Part shown: piece after piece, positions 9,685 through 50,663 of the stretch
Numbering within the stretch: position 1 is the stretch's first letter
Layout of the letters: the number at the start of each line of letters is the position of its first letter
Source of the DNA: Romanomermis culicivorax
Lineage: Eukaryota; Nematoda; Enoplea; Mermithida; Mermithidae
DNA length: 64,000 bases
Reading direction: 5' to 3'
Assembly: GCA_963922205.1 (NCBI GenBank)
Contig: CAWUHX010000149.1
Coordinates: 186,001 to 250,000, forward strand
Notes under the pieces: model-generated
What the model was told of the DNA's origin: nothing
The model's database searches: none
What the model saw: only the letters and a program-made list of their open reading frames with translations
Made by a program: the position numbers and the translations under genes

Positions 9685-10171
9685 TGTTTTAGGTACTATA
9701 CTGTTCGAATGATTTCTTCCAAAGCAAAAATTAATGTAACTTACGTCGTGATGTGTTCCATATGCACTGCCTAACTTGAAGGCATGTTCAAACACTCTTG
9801 TTTATTCAACAAGCACATAATTACTGTAGAAAACTGCGCATCTATACATTCTTCCGACTTCTCAGCAGTGTTATTTTTTAGTGCCAAAACATGGTTTTTT
9901 TTGGCACAAAAAAATTTGGAATGGCACAAAAAATTTTGAGCGTTTGTGCCAATTGACACAAAAATTTCGGCTGGTCAAACATTAAATTTCCTTAATTTTT
10001 AGACGTTTTAGGGACTGAAAATGCAGAAAATTTTCGGCGCTTCGCGCCGCGCCGAGTCAATGGATATAATAATTTCCTATTCGTATATTTGACCCGAACG
10101 CGAATGATTTCTCTACGAGCAGTGTATTAGTATTGTTGCAGCAAACTTTATAGGCTGTCAAGACTGATGAG

Positions 10172-11184
10172 CAGGGTTGGCAAGACCTGGGTTTTTGGGT
10201 TTTTGGGTTTTTCTGGGTGCATTTTTTTGACAAAATTTGGGTTTTTGGGTTTTTCTTAATTCTTTTAAAATGAGGATTTCATCGTTAATTTGAGGATTTC
10301 ATCGTTAATTTCCCTGTGGCAAATCCAGAACGAGATTGAGGATTTCATCGTTAATTTCCCTGTGGCAAATCCAGAACTAGCTGACCAAAAAAGTGCTGTG
10401 TATCAAGAATTGACGCAATACATGATTGAGGCAAAATTACAAAAACAAAATAACTCATTTCGCTACCAGACCAGATGCTCGTCAAAAAGAAAAAGTCTGT
10501 CCTTGAGTATTGGCTCACAGGGAGCTGACTGGCCGCTGGTGCAACGAATCGCTCTGAAGGTACACATAGATAACATGTTATTTGTTTCAATGTATTACAT
10601 GTATAAAAAATTAATTGAGATTTTTTCGCTCGTTGTCTCTACCGCATCTTCGGAAAGAAACTTCTCTACCGTTGGCTTCATACATTCCAAGCTGCGAAAT
10701 CAATTGTCGACGGAAACAGTGCGCAAACTGGTATTCGTTAAGACAAACTTTGGGCTGCTAGAAAGTTCCCGTGACTGTGAATCTGATGAAGTGAGCGAAG
10801 CCGAAGCGTGAAATTTGATTTCCGTAATTTTCAATTTTTTAAAGTGACATTTCAATTTTTAGTGTTTAGATCATGCAATAAAAAATTCAATAAACAGCCA
10901 GTCGTTTTAATGAGCCAAATCGATAAAATCGTTGTGCAATGTGCAGTCGCGTGACTCGTGTAAATATGTTACAACCAAATGTATAGTCAGTCTTGAACAC
11001 TGTTCAGCAATTTAATACACTTTATACGTTAAAAATAACATTCTCATATATATTTTAAGTAAAATGATCATTCATTAGTACAAAACTGGAACAAAAACCC
11101 TAGAAAAACCCACCAAAAACCCAGAAAAACCCACCCAAAAACCCAAAAATGAAGATTTCAAAAACTGGGTTTTTGCCAACCCTG
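10172..11184 (+). mobile_element. hAT transposon, internally deleted, nested in element A
   Basis: The ends are CAGGGTTGGCAA and its inverse. CTGATGAG is duplicated exactly at 10164-10171 and 11185-11192. The ends carry GGGTTTTTGGGTTTTT runs. It retains the 3' part of a transposase ORF with AATAAA-like signals after it (about 10878-10895). A 20-bp unit GAGGATTTCATCGTTAATTT is repeated about three times just before the ORF, around the apparent deletion junction. Confidence 0.9.
10290..10811 (+). CDS. hAT transposase C-terminal part (dimerisation domain)
   Basis: This frame of about 173 codons ends at a TGA at 10809-10811. It contains SLVVSTASSERNFSTVGFI followed by HSKLRNQLSTETVRKLVFVK, the hAT family C-terminal dimerisation region (S..SERNFS, then LRN.L, then KL.F). 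The N-terminal zinc finger and most of the catalytic core are absent, and the element around it is only 1 kb, so this is the 3' end of a deleted transposase. The domain itself is uninterrupted, which points to fairly recent activity of the family. The start codon is uncertain: the first 40 codons lie in a local repeat. It is unlikely to make an active transposase. Confidence 0.7.
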   Translation: MRISSLISLWQIQNEIEDFIVNFPVANPELADQKSAVYQELTQYMIEAKLQKQNNSFRYQTRCSSKRKSLSLSIGSQGADWPLVQRIALKVHIDNMLFVSMYYMYKKLIEIFSLVVSTASSERNFSTVGFIHSKLRNQLSTETVRKLVFVKTNFGLLESSRDCESDEVSEAEA

Positions 11185-11630
11185 CTGATGAGTGAAAAGA
11201 AATTCTGAATATTCTCTGCGAATTCAGTCAGATTCGGATTTAAAACTGGAATTCTTACTTTTTGTGTTGATTGATTCAAATAGAAAAACCGATATCGTTG
11301 ACAATCGTACAATGTTTGGATCGAAAATTTACAGAATTTTCGACTTTATTTTCTCTAGTCCTTACATTGTTGTTAAATATACATACATAGATATTCGTAG
11401 TCGAAAATTGAATCAATTTAAACTTCCTGAACAATTATTGAGCTATTTAAATTTTTTCAGCATTTCATTTTTTTGGGTTTTCGTGAACAATTTTGTTGTA
11501 CAGTTTTTTCTTGTCTCACTGATATGCTTAGCTGAAAAATAAGTTGGGCACGATTTTTACAAAAATTAATGCGTTAAACGTTAAATTTTTATCAAACTTT
11601 TGGCCCAAAACTTTTCCGCACTTTTCAGTG

Positions 11631-11823
11631 AGGTAAAGTGGGGTGACTTTGATCAGAGTATGGCATTTGATAACTATTTGAGATCGGCACGCCATTTTCA
11701 CTGTGTAGGCAACCTCACAGGCAGGGGACCTACTCAGCAAAAATGACCTGCTGATCTCAAATAGTTATCAAATGTCATACTCTGATCAAAGTCGCCCCTG
11801 ATCAAAGTCACTCCACTTTACCT
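11631..11823. mobile_element. Palindromic MITE (AGGTAAAGTGG ends)
   Basis: The left end AGGTAAAGTGGGGTGACTTT and the right end are inverted copies. A second inner inverted pair (TCATACTCTGATCAAAGTC and its inverse) extends the arms to about 60 bp each. It has no coding capacity. The target duplication could not be decided. It lies inside hAT element A. Confidence 0.6.
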
Positions 11824-11933
11824 TATGTTTCTAGTAAAAAAAAATTTTTTGTGTGCCATTGGCACAAATTTTTTTGGCCTCTTGTGCCAATTGGCACAAA
11901 TGTCCGTGCACAAAAAAAAACGCTGCTTCTCAG

Positions 11934-12964
11934 CACTGTTTTTTTCCACATTTGCACTATAATGTGGGAAAAAAATCTGGAATGTGGAAAAAATTTTTGA
12001 GGTCTTTCCACAAATGTGGAAGAAAAATTTTGGGTTTTCATATTGAAAAGATGCATTTTGGTGCATTTTAGGAGGTTCAAATTTTAAAATTTGCCGGCGC
12101 TTCGCGCCGGCTATAATTTTAATAATCATCATTATTCATTAAGTAGCTCAGGCGTGGCTTTTATCATGTCTACCTTCATTTATCACTTAATCTATAATAG
12201 TTTTCATCATCTTAAACGTAGTATCTCATGTTTTAATTGGTAATCTTCAACATTTTATCATAATATTTATAATGGAGATTCGCATTGTTTCCTTTTGAGG
12301 AAGATCAATACGTCAAGTCTCTATGCTTTATGATGCGATTATTTCTTTGAAAATCAATTCAAAAGCTTCATGGAAATATCTTTCGGAAATTTATACTCTT
12401 ATTACTCATATATTTTCGATCAAGTTCATGAGAGTTTACAAATAAATTACAAATTTTAAAATTTTTCGAATAAAATTCTAGAAAATACGACTGTTGAACA
12501 CAAAATTGGAATGTAATTCTAGAAATAAATGTTCGGAAAATTGATTTTCCAGCATCCCAGAATGTCAATATACCCAAAAAAAATTTCCCGGCGCTCCGCG
12601 CCGGAAACATTACCATCTTTTTTGGGCTTTCACTTGTTATAATAGAGGACTTGACCATTGATTTCTTGTGTAATTCAGGTCAATTATGCTCTTGGATAGT
12701 TTGCTAGAAAATTTGTTCAACAATGCTTGTAGGTTAGGCTTTTAAGTCGAACATTTCAATTCTTTCTTCAATTTTAATGAATTAACTTCTCTAAAAACAC
12801 CGGAAGGCTTGAAAAAGCTCAAAAACAGTTCGATAAAGCGTCTGTGAACATTTTTAAGTCAAAAAACGAGGATTTTAAGACGAAAAAAATTTTTTCCACA
12901 TGTGGAAAAAAAATTTGACCCCTTTCCACATTTGTGGAAAAAAGTTCGTGGGATAAAAACAGTG
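11934..12964. mobile_element. hAT-type element B with two GC hairpins
   Basis: The ends are CACTGTTTTTTTCCACA and, inverted from the right, CACTGTTTTTATCCCAC. The flanking 8-mers CTTCTCAG (11926-11933) and CTTCCCAA (12965-12972) agree at 6 of 8 positions. TTTCCACA words repeat at both ends. Two strong hairpins are present, at 12093-12111 (GCCGGCGC-TTC-GCGCCGGC) and 12588-12604. No transposase was seen. It directly abuts the right target duplication of element A. Confidence 0.65.
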
Positions 12965-12974
12965 CTTCCCAAAA

Positions 12975-13492: not shown

Positions 13493-13803
13493 GCTAGTGG
13501 ATGGGAAAAAACTATTTTCAAAATTTTGAATTTGGGTTTCTTAGGGTTTTTTTCTGGGTTTTATCAGCCTTTTTTAAAATTTCACAACGCTTGATCTGAT
13601 CCAAGTCTAAATAAAATAAATGCAACATCTCTAAAGCTTTATTCTTCATAGAGCAAACTATTTTCAGATCATTTTACCTGGTTTTAAAACAAAAAATACA
13701 CAAATCGCTCATCGTATTAGATAAAATCATCCACCTCTACACCGTCGACAAAATTGTTGGCATTGAATTTTTATGAAGAAAAAAAGAAAAACTTTGTTGG
13801 AAA

Positions 13804-14216
13804 CAGTGTTTTTTTGTACTTTACAAACGAAACGGTCCAGAGTACAAACGAAAATTTGGGCTTCGTTTGTACTGGTACGAACATTCAGTATCAATGGACT
13901 TTGTAGGACTTGTTTGTTATGCGTCCACATCGAAAACGACAAACTAGCAGCTGTCGCATAATAATAAAAGCTTTTTGTGGAGTATTTCACTAGTGTATGT
14001 TATGTGCCTCATGATCGAGTGTTTTATATGTCTGAATTTGTAGCCTTCTTATGTGTCTCGTGGAAATAGCCAACGTATTCATATTTCACAGCATGTTTGT
14101 TGCATTTTATAACAATAAATCCTTTTTTCAGCAATTTTTCTCAAATTTTGGAGTACAAACGGTTTTTGAGAGGTCGTTTGTACCAATTCAAATGGACCGA
14201 GTACAAAAAAACACTG
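13804..14216. mobile_element. hAT-type MITE, 413 bp
   Basis: A perfect 16-bp terminal inverted repeat CAGTGTTTTTTTGTAC is flanked by GTTGGAAA (13796-13803) and GTTGGAAC (14217-14224), a 7 of 8 match. Subterminal GTACAAACGA words are repeated in both orientations. No coding frame was seen. It resembles hAT element A in its CAGTGTT start and T-run. Confidence 0.85.
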
Positions 14217-14224
14217 GTTGGAAC

Positions 14225-15520: not shown

Positions 15521-15528
15521 CACTCCAT

Positions 15529-16285: not shown

Positions 16286-16293
16286 GTGTGGAG

Positions 16294-16735
16294 CATACAT
16301 GTAATTGGGGGGGAAGTGCTATTGGAACCCCCCCCCCCCCAGAAATCGTCGACCATGTGGCTAGCCATTGGGCGACCCCCCCAGGATTTTCTAATCCTAT
16401 GGCTAGCCATATGGTAGCCCTAGGGACCCCCATAGTTTTAGTCGGAAAAATACTGAAAAAATGTCATTTTTTCCATGAAAAATGTCAATTTTTGAACAAA
16501 AAATGGTCAAAAACGTCAATTTTCTCAGCGCTTCGCGCCATAAGTACATATTTTATAATTTTTTAGACAAAAATTACTACTTTTTAAACCGTTTTTTGGA
16601 CATTTTTCATGGAAAAAATCTAATTTTTTTTCCTTCAGGGACCCCTCCCCCCAAAATTTTGGGAATTACTGACCCCCGGCCCCAAAAAGTGCTCCAACCC
16701 CCCCCCCCAGACCTCGGAGCTCCGTTACATGTATG
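16294..16735. mobile_element. CATACATGTAA MITE family, copy 1 (hAT-like, 442 bp)
   Basis: It is bounded by the perfect inverted repeat CATACATGTAA, with GTGTGGAG duplicated exactly at 16286-16293 and 16736-16743. Inside, in order, are C/G homopolymer runs, the palindromic words GGCTAGCCAT and CATATGG, the GC hairpin at 16527-16539, and a mirrored A/T-rich half. Non-coding. Three further copies lie at 24421, 32265 and 32741. Confidence 0.92.
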
Positions 16736-18810: not shown

Positions 18811-21800
18811 TGATGCAGTTTTGTATTGACTGTACGTTTTCCAAGCATCTGGAAAACGGCTCGTGTGACACTTGTTCTCGATAAAGGCATCACGAGTGGG
18901 TGTTCTAACTATCGGTCCCTATCTTCAACTTGCATTAGTTATAGGATTCTTGACAAGAATCATTAACCCTCCAGGTATAATAACTTTCTTACCGTCAATA
19001 AATATTTCTGATCGTCAGTTCAATTTGTCGAGAAAAAATCCTGTGAAACCCAATTACTGTGTTCTAGGTATTTATTTGATAACGTTGACAAAAAAGTGGC
19101 AGTTGATAAAATATATCTGAATTTTTCTGAAACCTTTGATATAGTGTCCTATTAGAAACTCAGAGCGAAAGTGAATAAACTTGGTCTAAACGAAATTTTT
19201 TGTCCTGGATTTTGATTTTCTTTATAATAGTCAGCAAAAAGTACAACTGAAGAATATCCTGTCTATAGTTCTAAAAATGTAACTAGCGGGATTTCACAGT
19301 GTAGCCTTTTAGACGGGGTTTTTTATTTTTGTACATAGCAACCGAATTTCGGGTTGTGCAGCCAAATTTTTGCCGCCAAGTTGCACAGTGCAACCTGAAG
19401 CCTGACGGCCCTTATGATTACGTTATAGGTATTACGCTATATATTAATTTTTATGCATTTTAAAATTGAAAATACTGAAAATTTTCCGGTGCTTATCGCC
19501 AGATTTCAATTTTATCATTCCTCATGCGCGGTTAGAAACTGTCCTAGTTTATGCTCATAGAATTTAAACATCCACATATTCCGGGTAAAAGTTTGATTCT
19601 GTGTTGTTTCTTGACCGCAAGTGCTCAAAAAATGCGTTTTTTGACCAAAAAATGGACAAAACACGCCCTGATCAGTGAATTTTTTTAAAAAGTTATCCTG
19701 GGCATTATTTCGGCGGGGAAAAATTTTCGCTTCTTGACCGATTTTATTCGAAAAAGCCGTTTTAAACCAAAAAATAAGTATTTTTTCTCGATTTCTGGCC
19801 GGTAGTGGGGGTAGATGTCATCAAATGAGAGTTGGGGAAGCTAGTCGTCAATAACTGTCTATACAATTTGAAATTTTTGAGGAACCCTCCCCAATTCTCC
19901 TATTTACCGACAGGTATGTTTTTTACGTATTCGATGAAAAAAGTCAATATTTTTTTCCACTATTTTCACAAAATCTTTTTGCGATCCTTAACAAGTTTGA
20001 CCTTCGTAGACATAAACTTTTTGCATTTGGAAAATGATTAAAACATCATCAGCTCAGCAGGTGACAATGTCCGCAGCTCTGGCTGGTTGAAGAATGAAGA
20101 GTCTAAATTCTTGGTTGCTTTCATAATTTTTAAGTTTCAGTTTGCCGCTAGGGATCGGCCGAGGGAAGAAATTTTACTCCGGCCGAGGCCGGGGCCGAGG
20201 TAAAGAGACATCACCTAATATAAATTTTGTCATCACCTTGAGGTATAAATAAATTGAATCGATTTTTATATCAGTCAAGACCACAATTGGCAAGGCCTTG
20301 GTTTTTGTTTTTTTTTAAACAAAAAAAACGCAATATCCTTGGTATTTTATTTTTTTCCAAAATCACTCGGAAACTTTTTTTTCGAATTAGCCGATCTTCT
20401 AGACACGTATTGGTGTCTATCTAAGTCTAAAAGCTGACTTCACTACAAAGTAGGAAAAAATCGTATTTCTATGATACATTTTGTACACGAAAGATATAAA
20501 TCAATCGATATTTCATGTATCCATCATGCAAGCACACGTTTAGTACATGAGTCGAATTTGCTGTAGGCTTACAAACAAAAAAGTTAAACACCAAATCTTT
20601 TGTAGTGTGTATTCCGACGTCCAAATTATCAACGAAATTTTATAAAATATGATTGAGTTTAATATTCTGAATTTGTTGTCACAGTAAGGTTTTTAGTTTC
20701 CTTAGCTCTAAATTTCAAAATGTAAATGAGACAAACGATAAGAAAGTTTTATCCAGATCAGTTGAGCTTAATTGAACCTCATATGTTCAATATGTTCAAT
20801 GAATGCATACTGAAGGTTAATAGAGAAAACAGCTTTTGAGTGGCTCGTTTTTATGTGGATTGACTTCGCTATAAAGTAGAAAAGAATCCTACACAAAAAA
20901 ATGTGTGAACCAATTGATAGTCTATACATTATGTATCCATCTTCCCCATCGGGGCATTTTCTAGTAAACTTGTAGATAGTCTGCCCCAGTCGCCTGAAAT
21001 AAACATGATTTTGTTCGCTGATGGTATAAACATTTACAGCTGTTCCGAAAACAGGGATCTGCAAAAGTTTATGGAATCCGTTGTCTGATGGTCTGAAAGA
21101 TGTCGACTAGCTCTCCATTTTTAAGAGTGAGAAATTGCATTTTGTATCTAACAACCAAATGCATAAGTACTGAATGAATGGTAATATACTTAAGGATACT
21201 GATGATTATTGCAAAGATCTCGATATCTTTATAAACGTGTGGTAGACCTATTTCAGAATAGGCAATTACTGTCTGGTCGCTCCACTCACCTGTTTCTTGA
21301 ACTTTTTATATTTTTTATACTGATCGTTTGATTATATTGAAGTTAGAGACACTTGAGAATAGAAAACGTTTAAATAATTTGGTTATGTTGTACAGGGTAT
21401 GAAGTAGACGTAAAATGCGCCATTCTCATACTCGTTCCAATCATAATTAAAAATTTAAAAATGATATTCCGATGACTGATATTAAAATATATTTCTTTGC
21501 TAACATGGTTACTCCTATCTGGAACAAAGAAGCAATCTTTCGTTCTTTGCTCTACTGTAAAAGCTGTACATGCTTTTTTAACCATGCACGTCATTTTCTT
21601 TATCGCGCGTGTTTACTTCTGAATTATTTAACATAGTGCGTTTTTGTTGTATTCCTTTTCAACATTTTTCGTAAATATTGTTGTCGCGAATAAATCATCA
21701 TCATTATAAACACTTCTATGAGAGGGAGAGAGAAAATAAAGATGAAAAGAAAGAAAAGAAGAGGAAGCGATAGTCAATCAAAAAACAAACCATCTGACCT

Positions 21801-22629
21801 GGGAGACAACCAACCAACTAACTGATCTAAGAAGCACCGAACAATTATGGAAAAGATCAACCAACCAATTTGAGTCAACCAAACAGCCAACCGCTCAACG
21901 AACCAACTAACCAAATGATCTGGGACCAGCCAATCTGGAAGTCAACTAACTAAGTCATCTTGGAGGCAGCCAACCAATACGGAAGTCAATCAACAAACCA
22001 GTCAACCTACTTATCAACCAAACAACTGATCAAAGTGCGAGGATATTTCCCCTGAAGGAAGTTTCGTGCAGAAATAAACGCAAAATTTGTGATCTTTCAA
22101 GTGTAAAGGAAAATTCGTTCACAGATTTGTCGGTCGATCTTTCTTCACGTACGAAAAAACTGGCCCTTGTTTGCTCTAATCCAGCTCAGGCAGGAACTTT
22201 AGCATGCCTACCTTTATTTTTTGTCAACCTTTGATTGTGTCCGTTATGTTAAATGCTTTATCTGACTTCGTTAAATCTTCGATATTTTGTTTGAATATTT
22301 AATGAAAATAGAGGCATTTTCTGTAAATTTTAACCAGTGTTTTTGCTTCCACTTGAATTTTTCAAATTCATGCAAGCCTGGGGCTGATATAAATTATTAT
22401 GAGCGTAGAAAGGTTCATTTTTCATCGTTTCAAAATATCAATGCTGCGCGCCAGCTTGGGTAATTATCCTGCCATTGCTAATTTGTCTGTTTCCCAGCCT
22501 GGCGTTTGACGAAGACAAGAGTAGACACACAGAGTTCATTTTTAAGATATATCAACATAGATTTTTCAATCTATTGCGATCCACAGAAACTTTAAATTTC
22601 AAGGAAATGCCATTTTTAGGTCCTGGGTT
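18811..22629. other. Gene-poor region upstream of ELL
   Basis: No credible coding frame. It contains a decayed relative of the 44846-45640 hAT from about 19313 (with a degenerate hairpin at 19488-19500), a possible decayed hAT end at 20287, and a duplicated segment (about 20425 and 20857, period about 430 bp). A minisatellite lies at 21780-22030. The ELL promoter and any 5' noncoding exon should lie at the right end but cannot be located. Confidence 0.4.
21780..22030. repeat. Degenerate CAACCAAC minisatellite
   Basis: Irregular units of about 20-25 bp based on CAACCAACCAAT are preceded by a purine-rich GAGAGAGAAAA tract. The same two-part arrangement (purine tract, then CAACCAACCAATTTGGGAA units) occurs at 36480-37230. 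Confidence 0.65.
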
Positions 22630-25600
22630 ATGCCGAACGAAAACATTTGCCAGGTTTTGCCTCTGTTACCTTTATCGCCTACTGAGAATAAACTTCGGCG
22701 GACGATTTTTCACGTGAAATTAACCGATGCCAGTCGTTCGGCGTTAGAAAACTTACTCAAATCTAAAAATGCCAATCAATCGCCGATCGCAAATGTAGAG
22801 ATCAAAGATAATGAGGGTCGCCTTACTTTTAACGCAGGTAATAATTTTCTTAACATTATTTCAAGTTCTGTGAACAAAATGTCGAAAGCTTAAGTTAATT
22901 CTGTTAGAGGTTTTAAAAATCTCAGTCTTTTTTATGTTAACAGGTAGATTTTTTTCTGCGCGCGTCTTTCTGCTCAAGGTATCTCTGCACCGGATAAATT
23001 TTTCTTTTTAAAATAAAAATAATTTTAAAAACAGTAATTGCAGTAGTTTATTCAAAGTCTTTTTCATGTGCTGAGAAGGAATTTTTCTCTGCTTGGTTAC
23101 CGTTAAATTAATTAACCATAAATGTAATTAAAATTTCACGTCTTTCAAGTATTCTGAGTAATTTTAAAAACGTAAAAATTATCAAGATTTAAAACCAAGA
23201 AGTATGTAAAGCATGACAAATTCAACAATGCCACAATTGAACAGGTGAACTTAACGAGCAAGACTGTGGCGCAAAAGACGTTGGGCATAGCGCTGGTAAA
23301 TTTTGACATTTCAGCTTGTTAGATGATCAGAAAATGCACCTTTTATCGATTCCCTCGATAGAAGCACCCAAAATTTCGATTAATTCTCGATCAAAAATTT
23401 CTGTCATTCAAAAAATACCCAAAAAAACTTTCTGCACGGCCGAGAAAACAGTGCGCTGTGCATAAAAAAGCCTGTTAATAGGTGGTCGAGGAAATGGGTC
23501 GAACAGTAGCGGAACTAGCTTCCGTTTCGCCGTCAGTGATATCAACTCCGAGTTGGCAAAGGGTCAAATGCAAACGTTGCGACAAAAGAACAGAACCTCC
23601 GATTCATTTATTTTAAATTCAATGGGAGAAATAACGCAGAGAGTCAAGATCTTAACCACAGACAAAGAATCATTTGAATCAACAAAGTTGAAGGTACATA
23701 ATCTTACCGCAAAATTGTTCCACTCAACTTTAACGTTTTTCTAGGCCAAAAATGAAGCGGATAAAGTCAAAAAACACGCCGAAAAAATATCAGTCAAAGT
23801 TGATGGAAGTCACTCGGTGAAAAAACAGTTAGGATCGAAATCGAAATTGTTACAGAAGTTAGTCTCAGCCGAACGCCATTCTACAGGCGGAGGCGCTCAC
23901 GCAGATCGACCTTCTACGCCATCGTCGTTCGGTACATTAACGAACGCCATTTCCGGTAGCGGTGCTTCAAAATTCGGCGATGTGGCACGAAAGCCTCTTC
24001 GGCAGAGAATAATACAACATTTAGCGGCCAGGTAAAGGACTGAGCATACAATAAAAGTTGATGAAAGATGTCAATTGTTTTGTTAAAAACGATCGAAAGT
24101 CGAGTAATATCAAGTTGTGGACAGATTTCAGGTTGAAGAAGTTATTTTGTTTAGTCTAATCATTTTTCATAATCTTCGTGCTCATTAGTTGAATTAGCTC
24201 TGAACCGAATAAAAATCAAGAGGCTCCATCATACATTTAACAGAGAACCGAGGTCTGGGGGGCATCCACTGGCTAAAATTTCAGAGGTATTCATTGGAAA
24301 AAAATTCTATTTTTTCGCTTAAAGCCTGAAAAACGATTCAAAAAATAGGAATTTTTATCTAAAAATGCATTAAAACATGTATTTATAACGCGGTGCACCG
24401 AAAAAATGCACATTTATGACCATACATGTAACGGAGCTCCGAGGTCTGGGGGGGGGGGGTTGGAGCACTTTTTTGGGGCCGGAGGTCAGTAATTCCCAAA
24501 ATTTTGGGGGGAGGGGTCCCTGAAGGAAAAAAAATCGATTTTTTCCATGAAAAATGTTTGAAAAACGGTTTAAAAAGTAGTAATTTTTGGCTAAAACATG
24601 ATAAAATATGTACTTATGGTGCGAAGCGCCGAGAAAATTGACGTTTTTGACCATTTTTTGTTCAAAAATTGACATTTTTCATGGAAAAAATGACATTTTC
24701 CAGTATTTTTCCGACTAAAACTATGGGGGTCCCTAGGGCTACCATATGGCTAGCCATAGGATTGGAAAATCCTGGGGAGGGTCGCCCAATGGCTAGCCAT
24801 ATGGTCGACGATTTCTGGGAGGGGAGTTCCCATAGCACTTCCCCCCCCCCCAATTACATGTATGTTTATGACCGTTTCTGTTCAACATTCTACAGTTTTT
24901 TTCGACCAAGAGGATGGGATGGGATTACCATGTTTCAGCCGTAGTATGATTGGCGAATCTTGGGAGTCACCATATTGCCAGCCATTTGTCCGAACATTTT
25001 TATGGACAGCTTCTTATGGTACGTACACCACTTGTATATGGGCTGTGTAGAGATGTATCGGGGACCCCGACACGAAATGAGACCCGAAATTACTCGATCA
25101 TTTTGCCGGACCTAGACCCTATATTCTTAAAATTTTAGACTTAGAACCGATATTCTTAAAATTTTGGAACCTGACCCCAAAAAATTGTTACACTTCTGAT
25201 TCGGGTCTGATGTAGGACTTAGTCATTCGGCTGAAAACAAGTACCCATGTTGAAGAATGTGATGACAGACACAGCAATTAACTATTGAAATATGAAAAGT
25301 AACAGATCAACACTTTATTTCTTAGATAATTGTAAGACTGACTTAGAAATGCTGGACTTTTCATGTTTTACACCTCTTGAAGTGTCCAGAAGGAAGCGGA
25401 AAAAGCCGGAAAAAACCATTTAAATCACTTTTCCCTAGGATTCCCCAGTATTTTTTCATCATTTTTGTAGGCATTAATGTCCAACATATTGTGCTAATTT
25501 TGATCCAATTTTTGTACCATTTTGAGGGAATTATAGCGATTGGGGCGCATTGCACTGTCCTTCAAATATCTTTTCGAATCTGAGTAAATCCCCAACCAAT

Positions 25601-28600: not shown

Positions 28601-31600
28601 CGTCGAACCGACCACGAAAAAACGTATCGCTCAAAAGCGGCGCACCCCAACGGAAACCACTGATCCTAACGCCAATAAAAGATCTAGCAACGTATCGAAT
28701 ATGTCCAAAAAGTCTTCGTCAGATGTGAGTATAGTTTTTTGATGATATTTTTTCACTTTCTATTTTATCGCTTTTCTTTCTAATTTGTAATTTGTCTAAC
28801 CTCTAATATTAGATTAGAAGGTTTTCAAAGCCACCAATACTTTTATTTTTAGCGCATCTGCGTAAATATAGAGTTAATTAATTGCAAGGTTTCCAAATTT
28901 CATTGTGCAAAGCCAATAGAATATAAGATAAATATGCCTACTACTGTGAAGAATAATAGTTTTCTCGTAGAAATGCATGTTTGTTTATACAGGAACATCT
29001 TTTTCCATGCATCAATGTCCAAAAAATTCAAGCTTGGAATTTTGTATCCTTCTTCGTTAACCTATTTTCTGATCAGAAGTCAGTGACGAAAAAAATATCA
29101 TACAATTTCTTAGGTTTCAAATTTTCTTTTTATTCCATAGTAAGAATAATCCAAGTAATTCTATAAATAGGAAGTTTTTCTTGACTTACTGTTACAGATA
29201 AATTAGGTAATTAAAAGAATTTAGAATCTAACCTGTTCTTGCGTACAGCGCCTGACAATGTCTTTGAATTATATACTAATGGAATCGGTTAACCTATTAT
29301 TAATAACGTGAGTTGAGTGTGTATATCTCTCCTATTGAAAGTTATACAACTATTTCCAGGTAAAACATTTTGCAGTATGCATTGCAGAACGTATAGATTA
29401 ACACGTTTTAGTACGTAATGCCATTCCCGGGAAAGGAAACGGGCTTGTTGATTTATTACCAAAACGTTAAAAACAGCACAAAAAAGTTTAGAGGTGTTTA
29501 GTTTAAAAGCGATGAAGCTTTTTGAGAACCATTTTGCTTCGAACCTTTCTTTTGTTTTTCCTTACAGTATTAGCCCTCTTGATCGTTTTCTTGACGCGAT
29601 TGGATCCATCTACCACCAACGCTTACTAAAATTATTTGTTTAGAAATCGCTACTGTCCAAACCACAGTCCTCACCCAAAAATGCAACTTCTACCGTTTAC
29701 ACTAATCTCCTTAAATCTTCCAATAACGACGACTCTAATCGTAGTAGTCGACAAAATTCTCACCAAATTTTATCACTGAATAACGAACAACGCGCAAAAT
29801 CCAGCACGCCGTCGAACGCTGAAAACGCGACATTGTCTGCAATCAATTATCGTACACAATTTCCACCGATTGTCGACGAAGAACAGCGCAAAAAGTAAGA
29901 ATTTTAGTCTTGACAGTCAACATTTTTGTGGTTTTGATCGGCTCTAGCAGCACTTGTAAAATATTCGAGTATGTGATGAGAAATTTATGCAAATTTTTTT
30001 TGATGGAAAGTGTCTAAATTCTGGGCAACCTATGACATAATAAATCTTTCTGAATCACATAATTCGCGGATACTTTACATGTTTGATTAAGACCGCCCAA
30101 ATTTCAATGAAAAATTGAAAAATTGTCAAGCATACTACTACTATTCTTTTTTATTCACTAAGAATTCCAACTACTCCTATTTGTACACCTAGATTAGCTC
30201 GACAGAACTTACACATTCTTTGGTTGCCAATGTTCGTCTCCAGTATTAGAGTATCAGATATTAGGGTATCTCAGCGCGAATTATTGCATGATTAACCAAA
30301 TTTGAGTTTCAGAAGTTCAAAACCTGAAAATGTTTTGAGCATTAGGATCATTATTTATCTGCGTTTGGCTAAAGTGCGGTTTTTAGTAAGTCTAGTACCG
30401 CTATCCGGAGAGAGTTCCAGCAAGTTTCTCCGGATAACAATAATTCGGGAAGTTTATGACACGCTTTGAAAAATATTTTTGTAGTATTAGTTAGTGAAGG
30501 GATGATCATACAGTTGTAGCGTATACCTATTAATTTAGATGTCTCACATAAATTTTGCGTGCTTAGTAGCAAAACATTGTTGCTAACAAACCTTCTGCAA
30601 ATATGATAAGTGTAGAACAAACATGTTTTACTATTCTACTGACATTTCACTAAGTTTCCGATAGTTGTAGACTTGGTTGAAATTCTGATGACCATTTTGC
30701 CACCAGGTATAGATTAAATTATGTTTTAGGTACGTTAAATTTACGTATTCTATCGTGGTGTTTCAGCACGGTGCTAATGACAGGGTGGACAGCAATCAGG
30801 AAAATCGGGAACTAAACTTCGGAAAAATAGTGAAGTCTTTGTCATTGTCAGCAGACCTTATTGACAAGATTTTTTTAGAACGAGTCCCATCAACACTCGT
30901 GCTAATGAAAAAATATTTCATTAGCACAGTTAGCACGGTTGGCAATTGATACTCTGTCGATCTGAAACTGAGTTTCTCAATTCTAATAACCTGCTTTCAT
31001 TGTATTATCGACTCATGAAATCATGCTTAATGTTGATACTCTCAAAAACAGCTTGGCCCTCATCTGATTCAAATTAAATTAGCTCATTCCCACATTATGC
31101 ACTTGCTTAGTTGACCGACAAGTAAATATTTCATGGTTAGTTTGAAAGTAAAACTTTTATTAATCGCTTAAGTCACATTCTGTTTAGATAAAGGTTAACA
31201 CGTTTTCATTGTATCTGGAACTGCGCTACAACTTCAATAAACGTTCTCAATTGATTTCTCAGCACAATCAAAACAGCTGCTGTCAAACTACTTAACAAGT
31301 GTCCAAGATTTTAGAGTCGAAGCTGATTCAGATTCGAGCCACAAAACATGTTTTGTTTTTTCTTTCATACCGCTGTTGCAATTAATATTATTATTCTTAT
31401 TCATAAACACATTTTTGCAATGCACTGTTACTCACATCATGTAACAAGAAATTAATGTTACACAAAGCACCTTTCATCAGTTTTATGGTTTAGCCCTTCA
31501 TTGATCAATGCGACAAATCTTACTACATTACCATCTCTCAGTACCTGAAAATCGTAATTAAAAGTAAACTTTTAAAATGTTTTCTTGATCTCCATCAATG

Positions 31601-34600
31601 ATAAGGTTGTAACTATCATCGAGTTGGCAACAAAATCGTAATTACTCTCCAAAAACCGTTAAATATTAATAGTTAGAGAGAAAGAGACGAAATATAACTG
31701 CAGATACCCTAAAAAAATGGAATGTTAATTGAGTAATGGTACTACTAGGCATTCCAAGAACCGCTCATCAGCGAAATCCAGATTTTAAGTCGGCACAAAG
31801 CGCCGGAGAATTCTGATTTTCTCAACTTCAAAGTTTGTCTTATCATTCAACAATTCGGCTAGTTTTTAAATAAAAAACTACAGCATAACAATCGTAGTAG
31901 AAATTCTCTGCATTTTCCAGGATTTCAACGTTTTCCGAGTGAATAAAAAAATATCTATAAAATTTTTTCTGAAAAGTTTTCATTTTCAAAAACCAGGTAA
32001 AAAAGCATGATGTAGCATGAAAAACCTGGAAAAAACGGGAATCTCATTTCGGAAATTTGCTGGCCACCCTGTAATGAAACCAGAGCCGTGCAAATAGAAA
32101 TTTCAGACTTTACCACGCGTCTTATGACTGAAAGTGATAAATTTTCAAGGAAAGTTTGTGAAAAATAAGATAAAAGATATCAACGAATTGTGGTAGGAAA
32201 TCAAAAATCACCATTTTCTTACATTTATTCTATAATTTCCACAAAATAAAAAATCCATTCTGAACATACGTGTAATTGGGGGGAAGTGCTATGGGAACCC
32301 CCCCCCCCTCAGAAATCGTCGACCACATGGCTAGCCATTGGGCGACCGTCCCCCCCCCCCAGGATTTTCCAATCCCATGGCTAGCCATATGGTAGCTGCA
32401 GGAACCCCCATACTTTTTGTCGGAAAAATACTGAAAAATGTTAATTTTTTGATGAAAATGTCAATTTTTGAACAAAAAATGGTCAAAAATGTGGATTCTC
32501 TGGGCGCTTCGCGCCACGAATACATTTTTTCGGTCTTTTTTTGAGAAAATTACTATTTTTTGAACTATTTTTCGTAAAAAAAATCGATTTTTTTGCTTGA
32601 GAGACCCCTCCCCCCAAAATGTTGGGAATTACTGACCCCCGGCCCAAAAAAAGTCGTCCAACCCCCCCCCCCCCAGACCTCAGGGCTCCGTTACATGTAT
32701 GATTCTGAATGCTTTCTTATTCGTTCAAATTACTTTGAAGCATACATGTAACGGAGCTCCGAGGTCTGGAGGGGGGGTTGGAGCACTTTTTTGGGGCCGG
32801 GGGTCAGTAATTCCCAAAATTTTGGGGGAGGGGTCCCTGAAGGGAAAAAAATTCGATTTTTTCCATGAAAAATGTCCGAAAAACGGTTTGAAAAGTAGTA
32901 ATTTTTTCTAAAAAATGATAAAATATGTACTTATGGCGCGAAGCGCCGAGAAAATTGACGTTTTTGACCATTTTTTGTTCAAAAATTGACATTTTTCATG
33001 GAAAAAATGACATTTTTCAGTATTTTTCCGATTAAAACTATGGAGGTCCCTTGGGCTACCATATGGCTAGCCATAGGATTGGAAAATCCTGGGGGGGGGT
33101 CGCCCAATGGCTAACCATATGGTCGACGATTTCTGGGGGGGGGGGGGGGTTCAATCGACAAACTCAGACATGGTTTTTTCTTCAAGAAAAAGTCAAGTCA
33201 CAAATGCTAATTTTACAGTAAACTGAGTGAAAAGAATGTGTGCCCTCAAAACAATGTCTGGCTACAGGGTTGGTAATACTAAAGAAAATTTATTTGCAGG
33301 AAGAAAGTAGGCTTTCAAATCGCAGAATCTAAAAAATGTCGTGAAAACATTTCAAAATCAATTTAATAGAATTGTTTGTTTTAAAATGTATGCTTTGTAA
33401 TATTATACATGTTTATAGCCGCCTCTGGTCAGTGCTGAGCAATGATTGAAGTTCTTGCCGGTCGAAAAATCTATATTTTTAAGTGGTAGACTGATTTCTG
33501 AATTTTGCTTACCTTTCTTGTCTAAGGCCCAAATTACAGAACGCGGGTAAAATAAAAGTAAGGTAAAAGTAAAATCTCGGGTAATGTAACCCGTGTTTAA
33601 CCCGCCATTTTACCCGCCCTTTACCTACTATTTTACCTGTGATTCTATTCATCTTTAACCCGAAGTTTTACTTGCGATTTTACCCGTCTTTTACCAACGA
33701 TTTTACCCATGTTTAACTTGGAAATTTACCCGACTTTTTTAGTTTTCGTATTACAGATCGTAGGTAAGTGGCGGGTTACCCAACCCATCATTTTTATATA
33801 TGTTATTCATGGTGAGCTTGTTTTTAGTCATATGAACAGAGTATCCCAAAACTAAAATGCCGATATCTCACAACGAAACATTTCTTTCGGTTCAAAGCAA
33901 TAGCTCTCATGACTATGCGCTACTTCCCCGATTATGTGAGCCATCCGCTCATGCTCCTGTAACTGCAGCTATCCTGAAATAATTATTATGCTTTACTGTA
34001 TTGTGTGCAGGATAATTTAAATTTAATTAAAATAAATTAAATAAATTAATTAAAATTACGATAATTTAAATTTCGACGTGTATAAATAGACTGATTTTAT
34101 TACGAAAAAGAAAAGAATCCGGAAGTCGTTATCTTGTTGGATTGAAATACAATTCAAATTTTAGTAGCATCGTTTTATTTCAAGCATGGATTAGTCTTAT
34201 GTATTTTTGATCGGAATAGATGAAAACCGCTTCGCCATGGGTCTATTTTGTTCTACCTCTAGTTAGATTAACCTCATTTGTTCAATCCAGTCCAATTTGG
34301 TGCTTTAATTCTGAGATCGATATTATTCTGCAAAAATAGATCTTGAAATTTTTTCATTTGACCCAATTAACTGAGATTCTTATATGATTCATGAAACAAA
34401 TTTTTGAAGACATTCTGAAACGATTTCCAATCATTTTTTGCTTGAAAATTATTTGGCCCAGAGCATATTATACTTCGAAAAATCAGTATAACGAATATTT
34501 ATCGTTTCCCTCAATGTCCTTAGTAAGTAACTCAAAATTTTATGTTGATTGGCAGGGCAAGTTGAGACGAGATTAAGGTAATGCAGCGAAGTTGACATAT

Positions 34601-35170
34601 TTGACATTTAAAAAGCGATTTTGTCAGTTTTTTAAGGTACGGTAAGTTGAAGGTCGATGGCAACGAATTTTAAAAAAGTTAATCTTGAAAAATCTCTCAT
34701 TGCTCATGAACGAGGAATCAAATCTCTGTAGTAATTAATTACACTATCGGAAGCCCCATCATAAATAAAATCATTTGAGGTCAAATTCTACACAAAAAAT
34801 AAAACTGCAGGAGCAACTAGATTATGATTTTTTCCGCATGTCCGTATCCCCGTTTGACAGTATGCAGTCGAAAATTTACGTTTCCAGGTACAAAGCTATT
34901 TTCGACGCCGAATATCCGTCCTATATCAATATTTACGATCAACTAAGTCGGGCCTTGATGGATATCGAAAAATTGGGCGAACAATTGGAAAATTTGGCTC
35001 AAAACGAAAAATCGACCGACGAACACAAAGTCTTAGAAGCCGAAATTTATAAAAAATTCCGGAAATTCGAACAGGATCCAATTATGCAAAGGTATAAAGC
35101 CGACCACGATCGCTTACGTTCTAAATTGGCTGTTCTCAAAGAAAGAGTCAAAGAATACGATCAAAGATGA
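22630..35170 (+). CDS. ELL: ELL, RNA polymerase II elongation factor (complete, 7 coding exons)
   Basis: ELL raises the elongation rate of RNA polymerase II by suppressing pausing and is a subunit of the super elongation complex in the nucleus. Coding exons: 22630-22837, 23482-23693, 23745-24031, 26349-26683, 28423-28724, 29644-29894, 34888-35170. All junctions are GT..AG and in phase, totalling 1878 nt (625 residues). FHVKLTD at about residue 27 starts the N-terminal ELL domain, which continues through the winged-helix-like RQRIIQHLAAR and DLLARLTK segment (about 225-260). After a Ser/Asn-rich linker, the occludin/ELL domain fills about residues 518-625 (EEQRKKYKAIFDAEY to RVKEYDQR). The ATG leaves a short N-terminus like that of animal ELL; a noncoding 5' exon could precede it, since TTTTTAG lies just upstream. 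Length matches human ELL (621). Confidence 0.93.
24421..24864. mobile_element. CATACATGTAA MITE, copy 2 (ELL intron 3)
   Basis: Terminal CATACATGTAA inverted repeats with TTTATGAC duplicated exactly at 24413-24420 and 24865-24872. Inverted relative to copy 1. The GC hairpin is at 24618-24630. Confidence 0.92.
25048..26200. mobile_element. hAT-type element in ELL intron 3, 1153 bp
   Basis: Terminal repeats are TAGAGATGTATCGGG and its inverse. The flanking 8-mers GGGCTGTG (25040-25047) and GGGCTCTG (26201-26208) match at 7 of 8 positions. Subterminal words such as ATTCTTAAAATTTTGG with GACCCGATA are repeated at both ends. The middle (25600-26045) matches the dispersed repeat at 2800-3900. No transposase was seen. 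Confidence 0.82.
26761..27486. mobile_element. hAT-type element in ELL intron 4, 726 bp
   Basis: Ends are CAGAGGTCCC and, inverted, CAGAGCACCCC. ATTATAAT is duplicated exactly at 26753-26760 and 27487-27494. Non-coding. Together with the next element it makes up most of this intron. Confidence 0.82.
27534..28256. mobile_element. hAT-type element in ELL intron 4, 723 bp
   Basis: The left end is TAGGGATGTCCCGATACC and the right end is CATCCCAA. Flanking 8-mers ATAATAAT (27526-27533) and ATGATAAT (28257-28264) match at 7 of 8 positions. The inner ends share GGTACTGG/CCAGTACC-like words. No coding frame. Confidence 0.65.
30781..32071. mobile_element. hAT-like element in ELL intron 6, 1291 bp
   Basis: The ends are CAGGGTGGACAGCAA and, inverted, CAGGGTGGCCAGCAA. 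TAATGA lies on both outer sides, so the duplication is only partly preserved. A hairpin (GGCACAAAGCGCC) sits at 31792-31804 next to AGAATTCT. The flanking DNA (AATGAAACCAGAGCCGTG at 32073) is shared with the interior of the 18003-18690 element, implying insertion into an older repeat. Confidence 0.65.
32265..32701. mobile_element. CATACATGTAA MITE, copy 3 (ELL intron 6)
   Basis: Ends are CATACGTGTAA and, inverted, CATACATGTAA. ATTCTGAA is duplicated exactly at 32257-32264 and 32702-32709. The hairpin is at 32503-32515. Same orientation as copy 1. Confidence 0.92.
32741..33152. mobile_element. CATACATGTAA MITE, copy 4, right end lost
   Basis: Begins with CATACATGTAACGGAGCTCC, inverted relative to copy 3 and only 39 bp from it. 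It stops abruptly after the G-run near 33150, before the expected right terminus. The hairpin is at 32935-32947. With copy 3 it forms an almost 900-bp inverted repeat in the intron. Confidence 0.85.
33172..33262 (-). repeat. Fragment of CAAGCCTGTAG MITE family
   Basis: Read on the minus strand it matches the MITE at 15398 (CTGTAGCCAG, then GGGCACACATT, then TTTACTGTAAAATT). It abuts the broken end of MITE copy 4. Confidence 0.6.
33528..33785. repeat. Cluster of TTTTACCCG words, possible Harbinger end
   Basis: TAA followed by GGCCCAAATTACAG starts a stretch with many copies of TTTTACCCGC or its inverse. The start resembles the Harbinger-type ends elsewhere in the window, but no inverted partner was found. 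Confidence 0.4.
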
Positions 35171-40657: not shown

Positions 40658-40671
40658 ATGTCTGTGAAAAG
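40658..40671 (+). CDS. Candidate first coding exon of POLR3D (14 nt)
   Basis: ATGTCTGTGAAAAG followed by GTATAT would encode MSVK plus two bases of a codon. Joined to the exon at 43029 this gives an Arg before LPSLKPP in the right phase, and animal RPC4 proteins also have Arg-Leu-Pro-Ser there. With it the protein would be 406 residues. A 14-nt match can occur by chance, so this is only a candidate. Confidence 0.3.
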
Positions 40672-41925: not shown

Positions 41926-42838
41926 GAGGCCATATTCACCAACAGGTTGGCTCATTTCTTTTAGGTGAGAAAAATTCTATCTATGATTCTACCACTACCT
42001 GCAGGTAAGAAAAAATCCTTATTCATAAAGCGTTGTAGGAATGAACTTGAAACCTACCTGTTGATAGGACAAGTAAACATGAAATAGAAGACGATTATCG
42101 ATTTTCTTTGAATGCGACAGAGCAACATACCCAGGAAAATAGTCCAAAAAGTGTTTTTCGAGTCGTCTGCGGTGCCGCAAATATTGCCAAGAAATTAGCT
42201 CATGTGAATGTCGCAGAGAATCAGAGTGATCCAAAAACTGATTAGTTCGAAAGCCTTGTACACAGGAAGTCTCCGGAATTTGTTTCTCGTCGGATAGCCC
42301 TCATACTGTCGTTTTCTGTATCAAAAGTTCATATGTATATCTACAGTAGATATGACCTGTACATACTTGTGGTGAACCACAGTGCAACAGAACAACAGTA
42401 AACATTCTTTTTTCATTGGACACAGTTGTTCATTCACTTGCCGTTTGTGAAATTTCCTCATCATCATAAGAAAGCTACTTATAATTCCCAAACAAGACTA
42501 TAGCAGCAATAAATAAATGTTAAATTGCTGATGATACTGCAAATACGTTGTTTCTGAGGTCAAGTGTAAGTGTCTAATCTTCAACCACTCCGTTTTTATT
42601 AAAACACTGTATAAACACTTGCATGATTTCGGTGAAATATTCACCAACATTTTCATGCAAAGATTTACCGCCTACCAAGCTATTTCCCAAGGTAGATTTT
42701 TCCTACTTGCAGATACAAAATCCTACCTGAGAGTTGTTTTTACCCGATTTTATTAATACGATTCCTACCTGCAGGTATATTTTTCCTACTTACAATTGAG
42801 AAAACTACCCACTGGTCCGTTTTTATGAATACGACCTC
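41926..42838. mobile_element. Possible MITE-like element (GAGGYCRTATTCA ends)
   Basis: GAGGCCATATTCACC at the left and, inverted, GAGGTCGTATTCATA at the right are imperfect inverted repeats. Words like TACCTGCAGGTA recur near both ends (about 41993 and 42770). No clean target duplication was found. It lies in the presumed first intron of POLR3D. Confidence 0.45.
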
Positions 42839-43028
42839 AGTTTACCTTTATTTGTTTACTTATTATTCCGGTAAGTCAAGAAGCTTTTAATATATCACGT
42901 TACTGTGTTTCAAAAATAATATGACTGCTTACCCCTGAGATGTCTTAATTCACTTAAACGTTTTGCCCAAATATCCGGATCTTCCAAACAGTTATAATAT
43001 ATTTGTACATCGAATGCATATCCTTTAG

Positions 43029-46000
43029 GCTCCCTTCCTTGAAGCCTCCGCGCGACATCAACCTCGGCCAATCACCCGCGATCCCTAATTTACCTGGCTT
43101 GACGAGTTCCGCGTCTAGCCTTTTCGCGAAACCGAAATTCGCTCCAAATTTGGCGTTAGCCGGTAAACGAGTATCGCCCGCTGTTAAAAATGATTCGATG
43201 TCTGATCCGAAGAAAAATGGGCAGAAAATAGAACGAAATAGACAAATGAGCAAGCGATCGAAAAAGGAGCCAGAAATCATACAAGTTGGTTGGTTGGCAT
43301 ACATTTTTCAGCATAATTGTATCTTGACTTGATTCCCGGCGCTCCGACTTTTTCGTCAGAAAGTAAAGTCGTCGACTCCACAGATACACATATTATGGAT
43401 AGAGAGGGTCTCATATTTCGGACCCCGGTTATCCCCCGATGTTTAAAAAAGACAACTCTGAATTTTTTCATTTTTTCTGCCTAAAAAATGCATTTTTTAT
43501 CAAAAAGCGGTTATTTTTCTTCATTTTTTTGTCTTTTTGGTCAATTTTCAGTCTCTTACACCAACCTAGAAAATTTCTCAAGTTGACTCATTTGATTTTT
43601 TTAACGCGAAATTTCGAAATTTCTCTCAAGATCTGCAGAAAATTATCCTCCCAAAAATCGAGGGTAAATTTTGATGGTTCGTATAAAGAGTTCTAAAGGA
43701 GAGCTGAATTCTTCATAAAATTATCTTGCAAACCAAAACTTTGTCTAAACTTTTTCGAAAACGCAAAATTTGTAAAATTAAGCTCTATGTTTTGAAATTT
43801 CATTTAAAGATCTATCGAAAAGCCAACATTCCTTTTCAACATTAGGATATGAAAGCTTGTTATGAAAATATAATTTGTAAAATATGTGATGCAAAGTTTT
43901 TAAATTTTGTCGGAACATAAACGTACACTCGCCGTAAAACAATGGCGCAGCCAGTGAGGCTTCGGGAGACGTGTTCTTCCGAAATGAAATGAAAATAGTT
44001 TTTTATAGATTTAGATACTGGGGAATTAAGGTATTGAACATGAAGAAGTATAAAAATTCTTCAGCGCTCTATTCCACTGCTCTGTATTCTTAAATTATTT
44101 TACTTTATAGTATTTTGCTAATCAGTATCAGATGGTTGGTTTTTCTCCTGCGTAGTTTGGATAGTGCAGTTATTCAGCTAATGAAGGGGCAAATTTCAAA
44201 CGTTTTGATTCCAACGATTTTCGATTAAAGTATTCTTGAACATGTGTAAATTGCAAGAACCCCTTTATTCTAATGAGAGAACATAACGTTGCATATTTTC
44301 CATACTTAATTGTTGTCATATGCGCGCCGAACCAAAATCCTGGCCACATCACCCTGAAGTAACAGCAGACATTCGCTGAGACGCAAAACTTCTTCAAAAA
44401 TCTCGATAAATTTTGGAGTTCTACCCACCTGCAATTATTTTTACAAAATCACTTTTGCACGGTTTTTTTTGCAGTCCAAAGGAACTTTTTCCGAAGGTTT
44501 TGCCGAAGGCGCCGGCTCTTCGAGGTCGGTTGCGCGTGATCGCGCTGAATGCTCGATGAGCTCGCAATTTTCCAGTTCCTCGAATTTATTGTCAAATGGT
44601 GGCGGCGGCGGAAAAAAATCCAAAGGTGAAAGCGGCGGGAAATTATCCAATCGAGGATTGCATGGTCTCGGACCAAGCGATGACTTGGAAACCGACGAGG
44701 ATTTTTTGGGCTGCTTGATGAAAGACGATGTAAACATAATTTTTTTTCACTCGCAGTAATGATTATAATGACGTTCTCCATCTGTTTCGACAACTGAAAT
44801 GCAAATCCGAATATCTTCTTGCTAGAAAATTTATTCACTACCAATCAGGGGTTTTTTTGCACATACCAGGTTGCAATGTGCAACTTGGGGAAAAATGTTG
44901 GTTGCACAGATAAATTTTTGATTGCTCACTCTAAAATCGATAAATTTGCTTAAATTTATCGGAAAAACTATCGTAAACCAGTTTCCTAGTAGTTCATTCG
45001 ATCCGCGTCAGTGTTAGACATTTAAAACATAATTTTCTGAGTTTTGGAGAGAAAACAAAAAGGTTAATATGACTAGACTAAAGTAATAGGTTCGGCGCGG
45101 AGCGCCGAAAAATTTTCAGTATTTCAATATTCTATAATGCTGTAAAATTAGTCTTTTCACTTTATTTCCCACACAGACAGTTTGCTTTCTCAATGAATTA
45201 GATGAACTTTCAGTCGGACAAACTAAAATTCAAAAACTAGGAAAGCGACTAAGAATTTGGATCAGAAATTTCTAGCATTGTCCTACAATCAAAATGTTTT
45301 AATCACATGAAAGTCAAAGTTTTCATGAAGATCGCAAAAAAATTTCGAGAAAATTACCGAGAAAAATGTTAGTTGTCATCAAATTCGTCAAAAACAATAC
45401 AGGATCAAACATTTATCCATAATATGTTGATAACTAGAAGCTAAAAGCACTAACTTGAATGACCTTTTCTAACTGCGCACTAGAATAATGTAAATAGAAC
45501 GCATAAAAATGCATCTCCGGACCGAAAACCCTATAACCTAATCAAAAGAGCAGTCAGGCCTCAAGTTGCACTGTGCAACTTGGCCGAAAAAATTTGGTTG
45601 CACAGCCCGAAATTTGGTTGCTGTGTGCAAAAAAACCCTGCTACCAATACCATACATGCACGTGGGGGATTTGAGGGGTATTGACCTGCAACACATTCTG
45701 ATTGACCCTCAGCTGATTCTTGCTGAGCCCCAGCAGATTTGACCGACTCCCTCCAGTAATCGTTGAAAAGATGACGAATGAAATTGAGCAAGAAAGAAAA
45801 GGAAGTCGTCATAAAAATGAAAATGACGCTGTAGTTTAATTTTTCTAAACAAAAGATACTTGATTCCAAAGAAGTAAGGGTTCATTTATACTTGCCTTTT
45901 CCAACGGAACGGAACGGATCGTCAAGAGCTTCGAACGTTCGGCCTGAAAATCCATTTTCGATAGGAAAGGATGACTGCAATTTTGCGGGACATAACCGAC

Positions 46001-50660: not shown

Positions 50661-50663
50661 ACC

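Follow-up and report, generated by a model that had tools for sequence, protein, structure and literature searches.

Several features of hAT transposons and of small DNA folds bear on the repeat described here. Most hAT elements are reported to carry subterminal repeats, which are bound by the BED domain in Hermes, and a few, Tol2 among them, to depend on DNA well inside their terminal repeats (PMC10368747). Mini-hairpins with GNA loops, such as d(GCGAAGC), are reported to be extraordinarily stable in the consulted part of PMC4686876, and in an excerpt of PMC6887750 the V domain of short interspersed elements (SINEs) is described as captured by MER6, a miniature inverted-repeat transposable element (MITE). 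We analysed 64,000 nucleotides of the mermithid nematode Romanomermis culicivorax (GenBank assembly GCA_963922205.1, contig CAWUHX010000149.1, positions 186,001 to 250,000, forward strand), hereafter the window, in which a GC-rich palindrome with the core GGCGCTTCGCGCC (GGCGC-TTC-GCGCC) recurs inside hAT-like elements. We give a probability of about 0.55 to the reading that one lineage of non-autonomous hAT transposons has long carried the palindrome as a cis-acting part, and that it is a recognition site in moving elements. Our confidence is high for its anatomy and history and modest for its role.

The palindrome recurs in the window and throughout the genome. With up to two mismatches allowed, the core has nine matches in the window (10036, 12096, 12590, 16527, 24618, 31792, 32503, 32935 and 45094) against 0.15 expected, and none of 100 shuffles reaches nine. 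The first-pass annotation of the window had listed ten hairpins; nine of these are confirmed, one of them shifted from 12588 to 12590, and the tenth, at 19488 (GGTGCTTATCGCC), is three changes from the core and belongs to a decayed module of the F3 kind, the same kind as in element D. The A/T tract reported before most hairpins is likewise present at most of the ten places. In the genome (359,112,060 bases, i.e., 359 Mb, in 595 contigs) there are 10,896 exact cores on both strands and 2 matches to the reversed control, and the tract AAATTTTC plus one free base precedes the core 4,000 times (control 0). The concentration of the hairpin in transposon modules, a check set beforehand, was examined with core matches of at most one stem change in 264 kb, comprising the window and loci L009–L028, which had been picked for holding the exact tract plus core. 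Modules defined by flank similarity contain 83 of these 101 matches, so the hairpin is not equally common outside transposons in this sample; by eye, the remaining 18 divide into about 13 with a similar A/T tract and about 5 that resemble background. The core in the 264 kb is thus almost wholly confined to transposon modules. An Rfam scan of the window gave no match at gathering scores, and exact AAATTTTCCGGCGCTTCGCGCC was not found in the viral contigs searched, a set that possibly excludes records near this genome. The elements and cores in the window are as follows.

9866–11925, plus strand: element A, ends CAGTGTTATTTTTTAGTGCC.. and CAGCGTTTTTTTTTGTGC.., 8-bp duplication CTTCTCAG on both sides
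10036–10048, plus strand: core GGCGCTTCGCGCC, 170 bp inside the left end of A
10172–11184, plus strand: hAT element nested in A, CAGGGTTGGCAAG ends, duplication CTGATGAG, no core match inside
11934–12964, plus strand: element B of the F2 type, CACTGTTTTTTTCCAC ends, word GTGGAAA, two modules with hairpins; placed by ends and duplication
12096–12108, plus strand: hairpin core in slot m1 of B, from the core search
12590–12602, plus strand: hairpin core GGCGCTCCGCGCC in slot m2 of B, from the core search
16294–16735, plus strand: element C (F7), CATACATGTAA ends, duplication GTGTGGAG, core at 16527–16539
19476–19500, plus strand: decayed F3-type module, core GGTGCTTATCGCC, from flank similarity
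24421–24864, minus strand: copy of element C, duplication TTTATGAC, core at 24618–24630
31731–31927, minus strand: diverged module-bearing repeat, core at 31792–31804
32265–32701, plus strand: copy of element C, duplication ATTCTGAA, core at 32503–32515
32741–33147, minus strand: copy of element C with one end lost, core at 32935–32947
44846–45640, minus strand: element D (F3), CAGGGTTTTTTTGCAC ends, duplication CTACCAAT, core at 45094–45106

The carriers of the module are non-autonomous elements with 8-bp duplications and hAT-like ends. Their limits were set from 8-bp duplications together with inverted CA..TG ends, with window coordinates refined afterwards, and this search left many module matches without assignable ends. 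Perfect 8-bp duplications flank A, three copies of C, D, and copies of F1, F2, F4, F5 and F6; those of the F9 and F10 copies have one mismatch, and that of B is imperfect (CTTCTCAG / CTTCCCAA, 6 of 8). Short terminal inverted repeats starting with CA were seen, in a search that required CA..TG ends. Element D has another module near 45498, in which the hairpin is lost. The repeat at 31731–31927 has its sole similarity within the 264 kb at L017 1320–1537, and no ends were found at its module. Of the end types named in the first-pass annotation, CAGGGTGG was not located in the window, and the CAGGGTTGG element is the one at 10172–11184, which is nested in A and has no core match. The following families were distinguished.

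F1: CACCGTTTTTTTTTCC ends, three hairpins
F2: CACTGTTTTTTTTCCAC ends, two hairpins; element B of the window
F3: CAGGGTTTTTTTGCAC ends, two hairpins; element D of the window, where one of the two is lost
F4: CAGGGCTTTTTTTGCC and CAGGGTTTTTTTTGTAC ends, two hairpins
F5: CAAGGCCGTATTTAGG and CAGGGCCGTAGCCAGG ends, four hairpins in L017
F6: CAGTGTTTTTTTTGCA ends, two hairpins
F7: CATACATGTAA ends, one hairpin; element C of the window
F9: CAGGGTTTTTTCCGCA ends
F10, which is A: CAGTGTTTTTTTGTGC ends

Spans first named F11 (L026 3121–4385), F8 (L025 4209–7225) and F12 of L026 were dropped as hairpin families of their own, as other elements lie in or beside them.

The palindrome is part of a larger module. 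The module consists of a common left flank of ~45 bp (consensus GAAAAGATNNATTTT..GCRTTTTAG..AAAATTTTCC), which ends in AAAATTTTCC and is followed by the palindrome; the right flanks differ from slot to slot in the slot consensi. With the core masked, flank similarity located 105 module places across the 264 kb, and in a few of these the core is absent. An element holds one to four modules, which share one orientation in the elements compared, and interiors are alike over ~300–800 bp beneath different ends. The first module lies 157–177 bp from the left end in F1, F2, F3, F4, F6, F9 and A/F10, and in F1, F2 and A it stands behind a conserved subterminal scaffold. Between the consensi of 14 of 16 slots (F5m1 and F5m4 left out, the latter with a poor core), mean identity is 0.95 in the core, a value produced partly by construction because slots were found via the core (at most one stem change), 0.82 in the preceding 12 bases, 0.64 in the 38 before those, and 0.49 and 0.48 to the right; shuffled values for the same five stretches are 0.57, 0.45, 0.37, 0.37 and 0.36. 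Slots of related families such as F2 and F6 are not independent in this comparison. Among copies within slots, identity is 0.845 in the core, a figure inflated by 20 loci of contig C1 picked for an exact hairpin, versus 0.75–0.82 in the flanks. Within slots the core is thus kept hardly better than its flanks, yet it differs little from one diverged slot or family to another, which suggests that it is probably selected in moving copies. Inserted copies seem to decay nearly freely, and the lineages that found new families seem to keep the core. The sameness of the core between diverged modules hints at a functional part of the kind proposed by the first-pass annotation, but the modules were found via the core.

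Several of the families are one lineage with a shared scaffold in which a short subterminal word has been replaced at many sites. When aligned, F1, F2, F2_L027 and A share at their left ends the pattern CA(G/C)YG-T8-word..word-AAAAAAATTTGGAATG-word-AAAAAATTTTTGAG..word-word, which F6, F9, F3 and F4 fit more loosely. The word is GAGGAAA in F1, GTGGAAA in F2, GGGGAAA in F2_L027, GGCACAA in A (three on the left and three on the right in the window copy), GTGCAAA in F6, GTGCAAC in F3 and TGTACAA in F4. In all seven it clusters in both end regions, and the middle holds at most one copy; the F9 word is spread along the element, and one to three GTGGAAA also occur in F1, at the ends or in the middle of two of three copies. 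F2_L014 and F2_L027 are identical at 846 of 1001 positions, and none of the eight GTGGAA sites of F2_L014 is kept in F2_L027, where five align with GGGGAA and three with other forms. The scaffold pattern occurs 3,818 times in the genome (control 3); a joint search for scaffold and core at the spacing allowed gives 2,001 copies (control 0). Among 100 listed of these 2,001 copies, on which the word classes and stretch lengths rest, the first word is GCAC in 39, AGG in 32, TGG in 23 and another in 6. The inner site of the 32 AGG copies is CTC+GTGG in 19, CTC+GAGG in 10 and neither in 3, and a TGG outer word stands on an F1-like inner site in 2 of the 100. Half-switched subfamilies therefore exist among the AGG copies with a CTC+GTGG inner site, and they suggest a stepwise word change. 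F1-type copies mostly have a matched stretch of 127 bp (25 of 32), F2-type copies one of 128 bp (18 of 19) and A-type copies one of 129 bp (30 of 42); 7 of the 100 were not classed. Among listed scaffold places on contig C1, taken regardless of a hairpin, 20 of 39 have an exact TTC or TVC core 106–124 bp on, against a mean of 0.17 for the shifted control. In 291 kb, most of it chosen for a hairpin, 20 of 23 scaffold ends (at most two mismatches) are accompanied by a core, which lies 123–124 bp from the scaffold start in 19.

Hairpin-bearing sequence has also come to lie beneath foreign ends. The interior of F5 resembles F1 (618 aligned bases at 69%) within ends of another kind, and one F5 end is like that of the transposase-bearing hAT element L034 612–3862 (33 bp at 94%). 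L012 and L025 hold deleted copies of the GGATCC-rich hAT of L031, each with a hairpin piece at the same place; the piece measures ~430 bp in L012 and ~500 bp in L025 and ends just past the hairpin in both (boundaries by eye). Since these two deleted copies share one captured piece, the composite has itself multiplied. In L012 the piece begins with CAGTGTTTTTTTGTACAAGCC, a CAGTGTTTTTTTGTAC end; the captured piece has lost its other end. Judged from their sequences, F5 and the L012/L025 composite are two separate cases of capture, and F7 shares only the module with other families. The idea of a mobile cassette captured by several families therefore holds for a part of the recurrence only. The terminal repeats, described as clearly different, include truly foreign ends in the captures, and several of the others are one scaffold with a replaced word. 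The refuting case named beforehand, one family whose ends merely diverged, is partly true as well, and other hAT families carry captured pieces.

The two deleted copies, L012 4762–6283 and L025 8031–9634, are of a hAT family whose ends are rich in GGATCCGGATCC and whose terminus is TAGGGATGGGCC. A short element at 13804–14216 of the window has CAGTGTTTTTTTGTAC..GTACAAAAAAACACTG ends, carries GTAC words and is flanked by near duplicates, GTTGGAAA and GTTGGAAC, as judged by eye; its end type is that found on the captured piece in L012.

The transposase that moves the lineage was sought through the hAT dimerization domain. An open reading frame (ORF) at 10269–10811 matches Dimer_Tnp_hAT (PF05699, 4.4e-08), and it was rejected as the transposase of the hairpin element because it sits in the nested element 10172–11184. 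In the genome, PF05699 has 150 scored matches among 1,837 candidates, of which six, as 4.5-kb loci L029–L034, were read. They include PF05699-bearing elements for F5-like ends (L034 612–3862) and for the GGATCC family (L031).

We propose that the palindrome is a cis-acting site in the elements of this lineage that move. The subterminal words, presumed by analogy with Hermes and Ac to be transposase BED-domain sites, would have been replaced at many sites as the scaffold and the hairpin were kept. Copies nested in other hAT elements would have lost their own ends and would now ride beneath the ends of those families. The patterns of word replacement and of nested capture are seen in the sequence; the order of events is what we infer. 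The palindrome is likely to serve the transposons in some way. Its most likely role would be that of a recognition site, as duplex or extruded hairpin, set behind the transposase-binding words and bound by an accessory or host protein that would help synapsis or excision of the element. The contrast in core identity within and between slots suggests that selection on the core would act in the copies that move.

Several observations weigh against this proposal, beginning with the core-based choice of slots and loci and the relatedness of slots mentioned above. The fixed spacing could be explained by shared descent alone. Two of the 23 good scaffold ends in the 291 kb lack a core and a third is cut short, F10 of L025 has its word on the left only, and the short element at 13804–14216 has no core match. 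No core with at most one stem change was found in five of the six hAT loci L029–L034, and the only one in L034 lies outside the delimited hAT. Among these six of 150 PF05699 matches no autonomous member of the scaffold and hairpin lineage was found, so a need of the transposase for the hairpin stays conjectural.

Whether the palindrome acts as a fold or as a duplex site can be judged in part from its loop and stem. A possible, though doubtful, alternative that is compatible with a recognition site is that it works as a folded single-strand or cruciform hairpin with a GNA triloop (bottom strand GGC-GC-GAA-GC-GCC), for instance in replication or repair. The bottom strand does hold GC-GAA-GC, like the very stable GNA mini-hairpins in the consulted part of PMC4686876. 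The loop counts in the genome are 10,896 for TTC, 4,602 with the middle base changed, 668 with the first and 2,643 with the third (controls 2, 1, 5 and 10), which makes the middle base ~7 times freer than the first, as GNA on the other strand would predict. All middle variants occur, in several slots (60 C, 23 A and 17 G in 100 listed, hand count). A TNC loop, GNA on the other strand, is present in 54 of 68 modules, the 25 of 93 matching the chosen pattern being left out; changes per core position in the same 68 are 7, 3, 1, 4, 1, 3, 24, 12, 6, 4, 6, 5 and 9. Two steps out from the core, the opposed bases are C-G in 11 of 15 slot consensi, T-A in 3 and T-T in 1, which hints weakly at pairing. 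However, the 2,643 third-base changes do not fit GNA, and they weakened the strict GNA rule proposed at first; the loop follows that rule only loosely. Of 100 listed third-base variants (hand count), 46 are T, a CpG change, 42 are G and 12 are A; the TTG class seems too common for neutral decay of TTC and is probably a subfamily of its own. The stem is nearly invariant between slots and does not speak for pairing. Of the 105 module places, 93 were scored (12 without a core within three changes were dropped) and gave no compensatory doubles, 42 singles (11 G-T) and 2 uncompensated doubles. At pair 3-11 in the genome, the compensated double GGTGCTTCGCACC occurs 79 times and the uncompensated control GGCACTTCGCACC, with similar CpG transitions, 67 times; pair-class totals of 12,197 and 11,992 lead to 1,222 and 1,029 singles, and, whatever the split of singles, enrichment of the compensated double does not exceed 0.99 times that of the control. 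The prediction that compensatory changes keep the stem thus failed in decayed copies, at the module places as in the genome counts, and the source stem varies so little that it is silent on the point. DNA folding energies did not distinguish the loops.

The palindrome is unlikely to be a neutral passenger of a successful lineage that looks conserved through young copies and core-based module finding. Such a passenger would account for the nearly equal decay of core and flanks within slots, for a spacing that may be inherited, and for slots that were defined by the core. It accounts poorly for diverged slots, with left flanks at ~64% and right flanks little above shuffled, that share a CpG-rich core almost unchanged, or for the scaffold classes A, F1 and F2, which were listed regardless of a hairpin and all carry the core at nearly the same distance. 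We consider it quite unlikely that the palindrome is a transferable cis-acting amplification module, in which case any non-autonomous hAT element would become more mobile or more numerous on obtaining it, whether through descent with word replacement or through capture; a host factor would then recognise it, possibly in the form of a GNA DNA hairpin, at a fixed distance from the words that the transposase binds. Very unlikely is a module that is itself a small mobile element (a foldback, a SINE-like tail or a Helitron end) inserting into hAT elements. The palindrome does sit at the right edge of the shared module, with slot-specific right flanks, and the module is present in the otherwise unrelated F7 elements. 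Yet no constant right edge beyond GG is seen by eye in 14 slot consensi, the modules of an element keep one orientation in the elements compared, and both transfers seen carry much more than the module. Helitron 3' ends have a hairpin followed by CTRR and make no target duplication; no conserved CTRR follows the hairpin here in those consensi (by eye) and 8-bp duplications are present, which disfavours the Helitron-end and SINE-tail readings.

Other features of the window lie apart from the module. Frames matching an ELL elongation factor extend over ~12.6 kb at 22561–35170 (plus strand), with the C-type elements at 24421–24864 and 32265–33147 between them. An array of 21-bp units (GGTGCAAGTTTTGAAAAAATT-like) at 531–1622 lies in a large inverted repeat whose inverted copies span 1–1745, and retroelement frames with aspartyl protease and reverse transcriptase matches lie at 48820–50672 (minus strand).

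The elements form a natural series: a single transposon scaffold persists, the word that the transposase presumably binds has changed at many sites, and half-switched subfamilies are still visible. The word series makes testable how non-autonomous elements change transposase. The elements also show internal sequence passing from one hAT family to another when copies nest and lose their ends, and they draw attention to a palindrome present in ~10,900 exact copies. Further work is best directed at the many-site word changes and at the conservation of the core at near-fixed spacing. A limited literature search, with sources available in part, found no description of the module.

Known systems resemble the lineage in part. 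Its 8-bp duplications, short CA..TG ends, high copy number and subterminal repeats are those of non-autonomous hAT elements and hAT MITEs, from which it differs in an internal palindrome shared by several end types at near-fixed spacing and in word replacement on a kept scaffold. Hermes, Ac and Tol2 also have short words that recur near both ends, in part as palindromes, and the words here would, carried over from Hermes, be BED-domain sites; in contrast to those systems, the word differs between close relatives as the scaffold stays, and the GC-rich palindrome lies deeper, as a site apart with a different sequence. On the bottom strand, the triloop and the GC pairs that close it resemble d(GCGAAGC) as given in PMC4686876, whereas the loop rule is not strict here and a fold in the cell is putative. 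The SINE V domain captured by MER6, as presented in PMC6887750, is likewise a conserved internal domain that has spread as a passenger of a DNA transposon; sequence and superfamily are different, and the donor in R. culicivorax is itself a hAT-type element.

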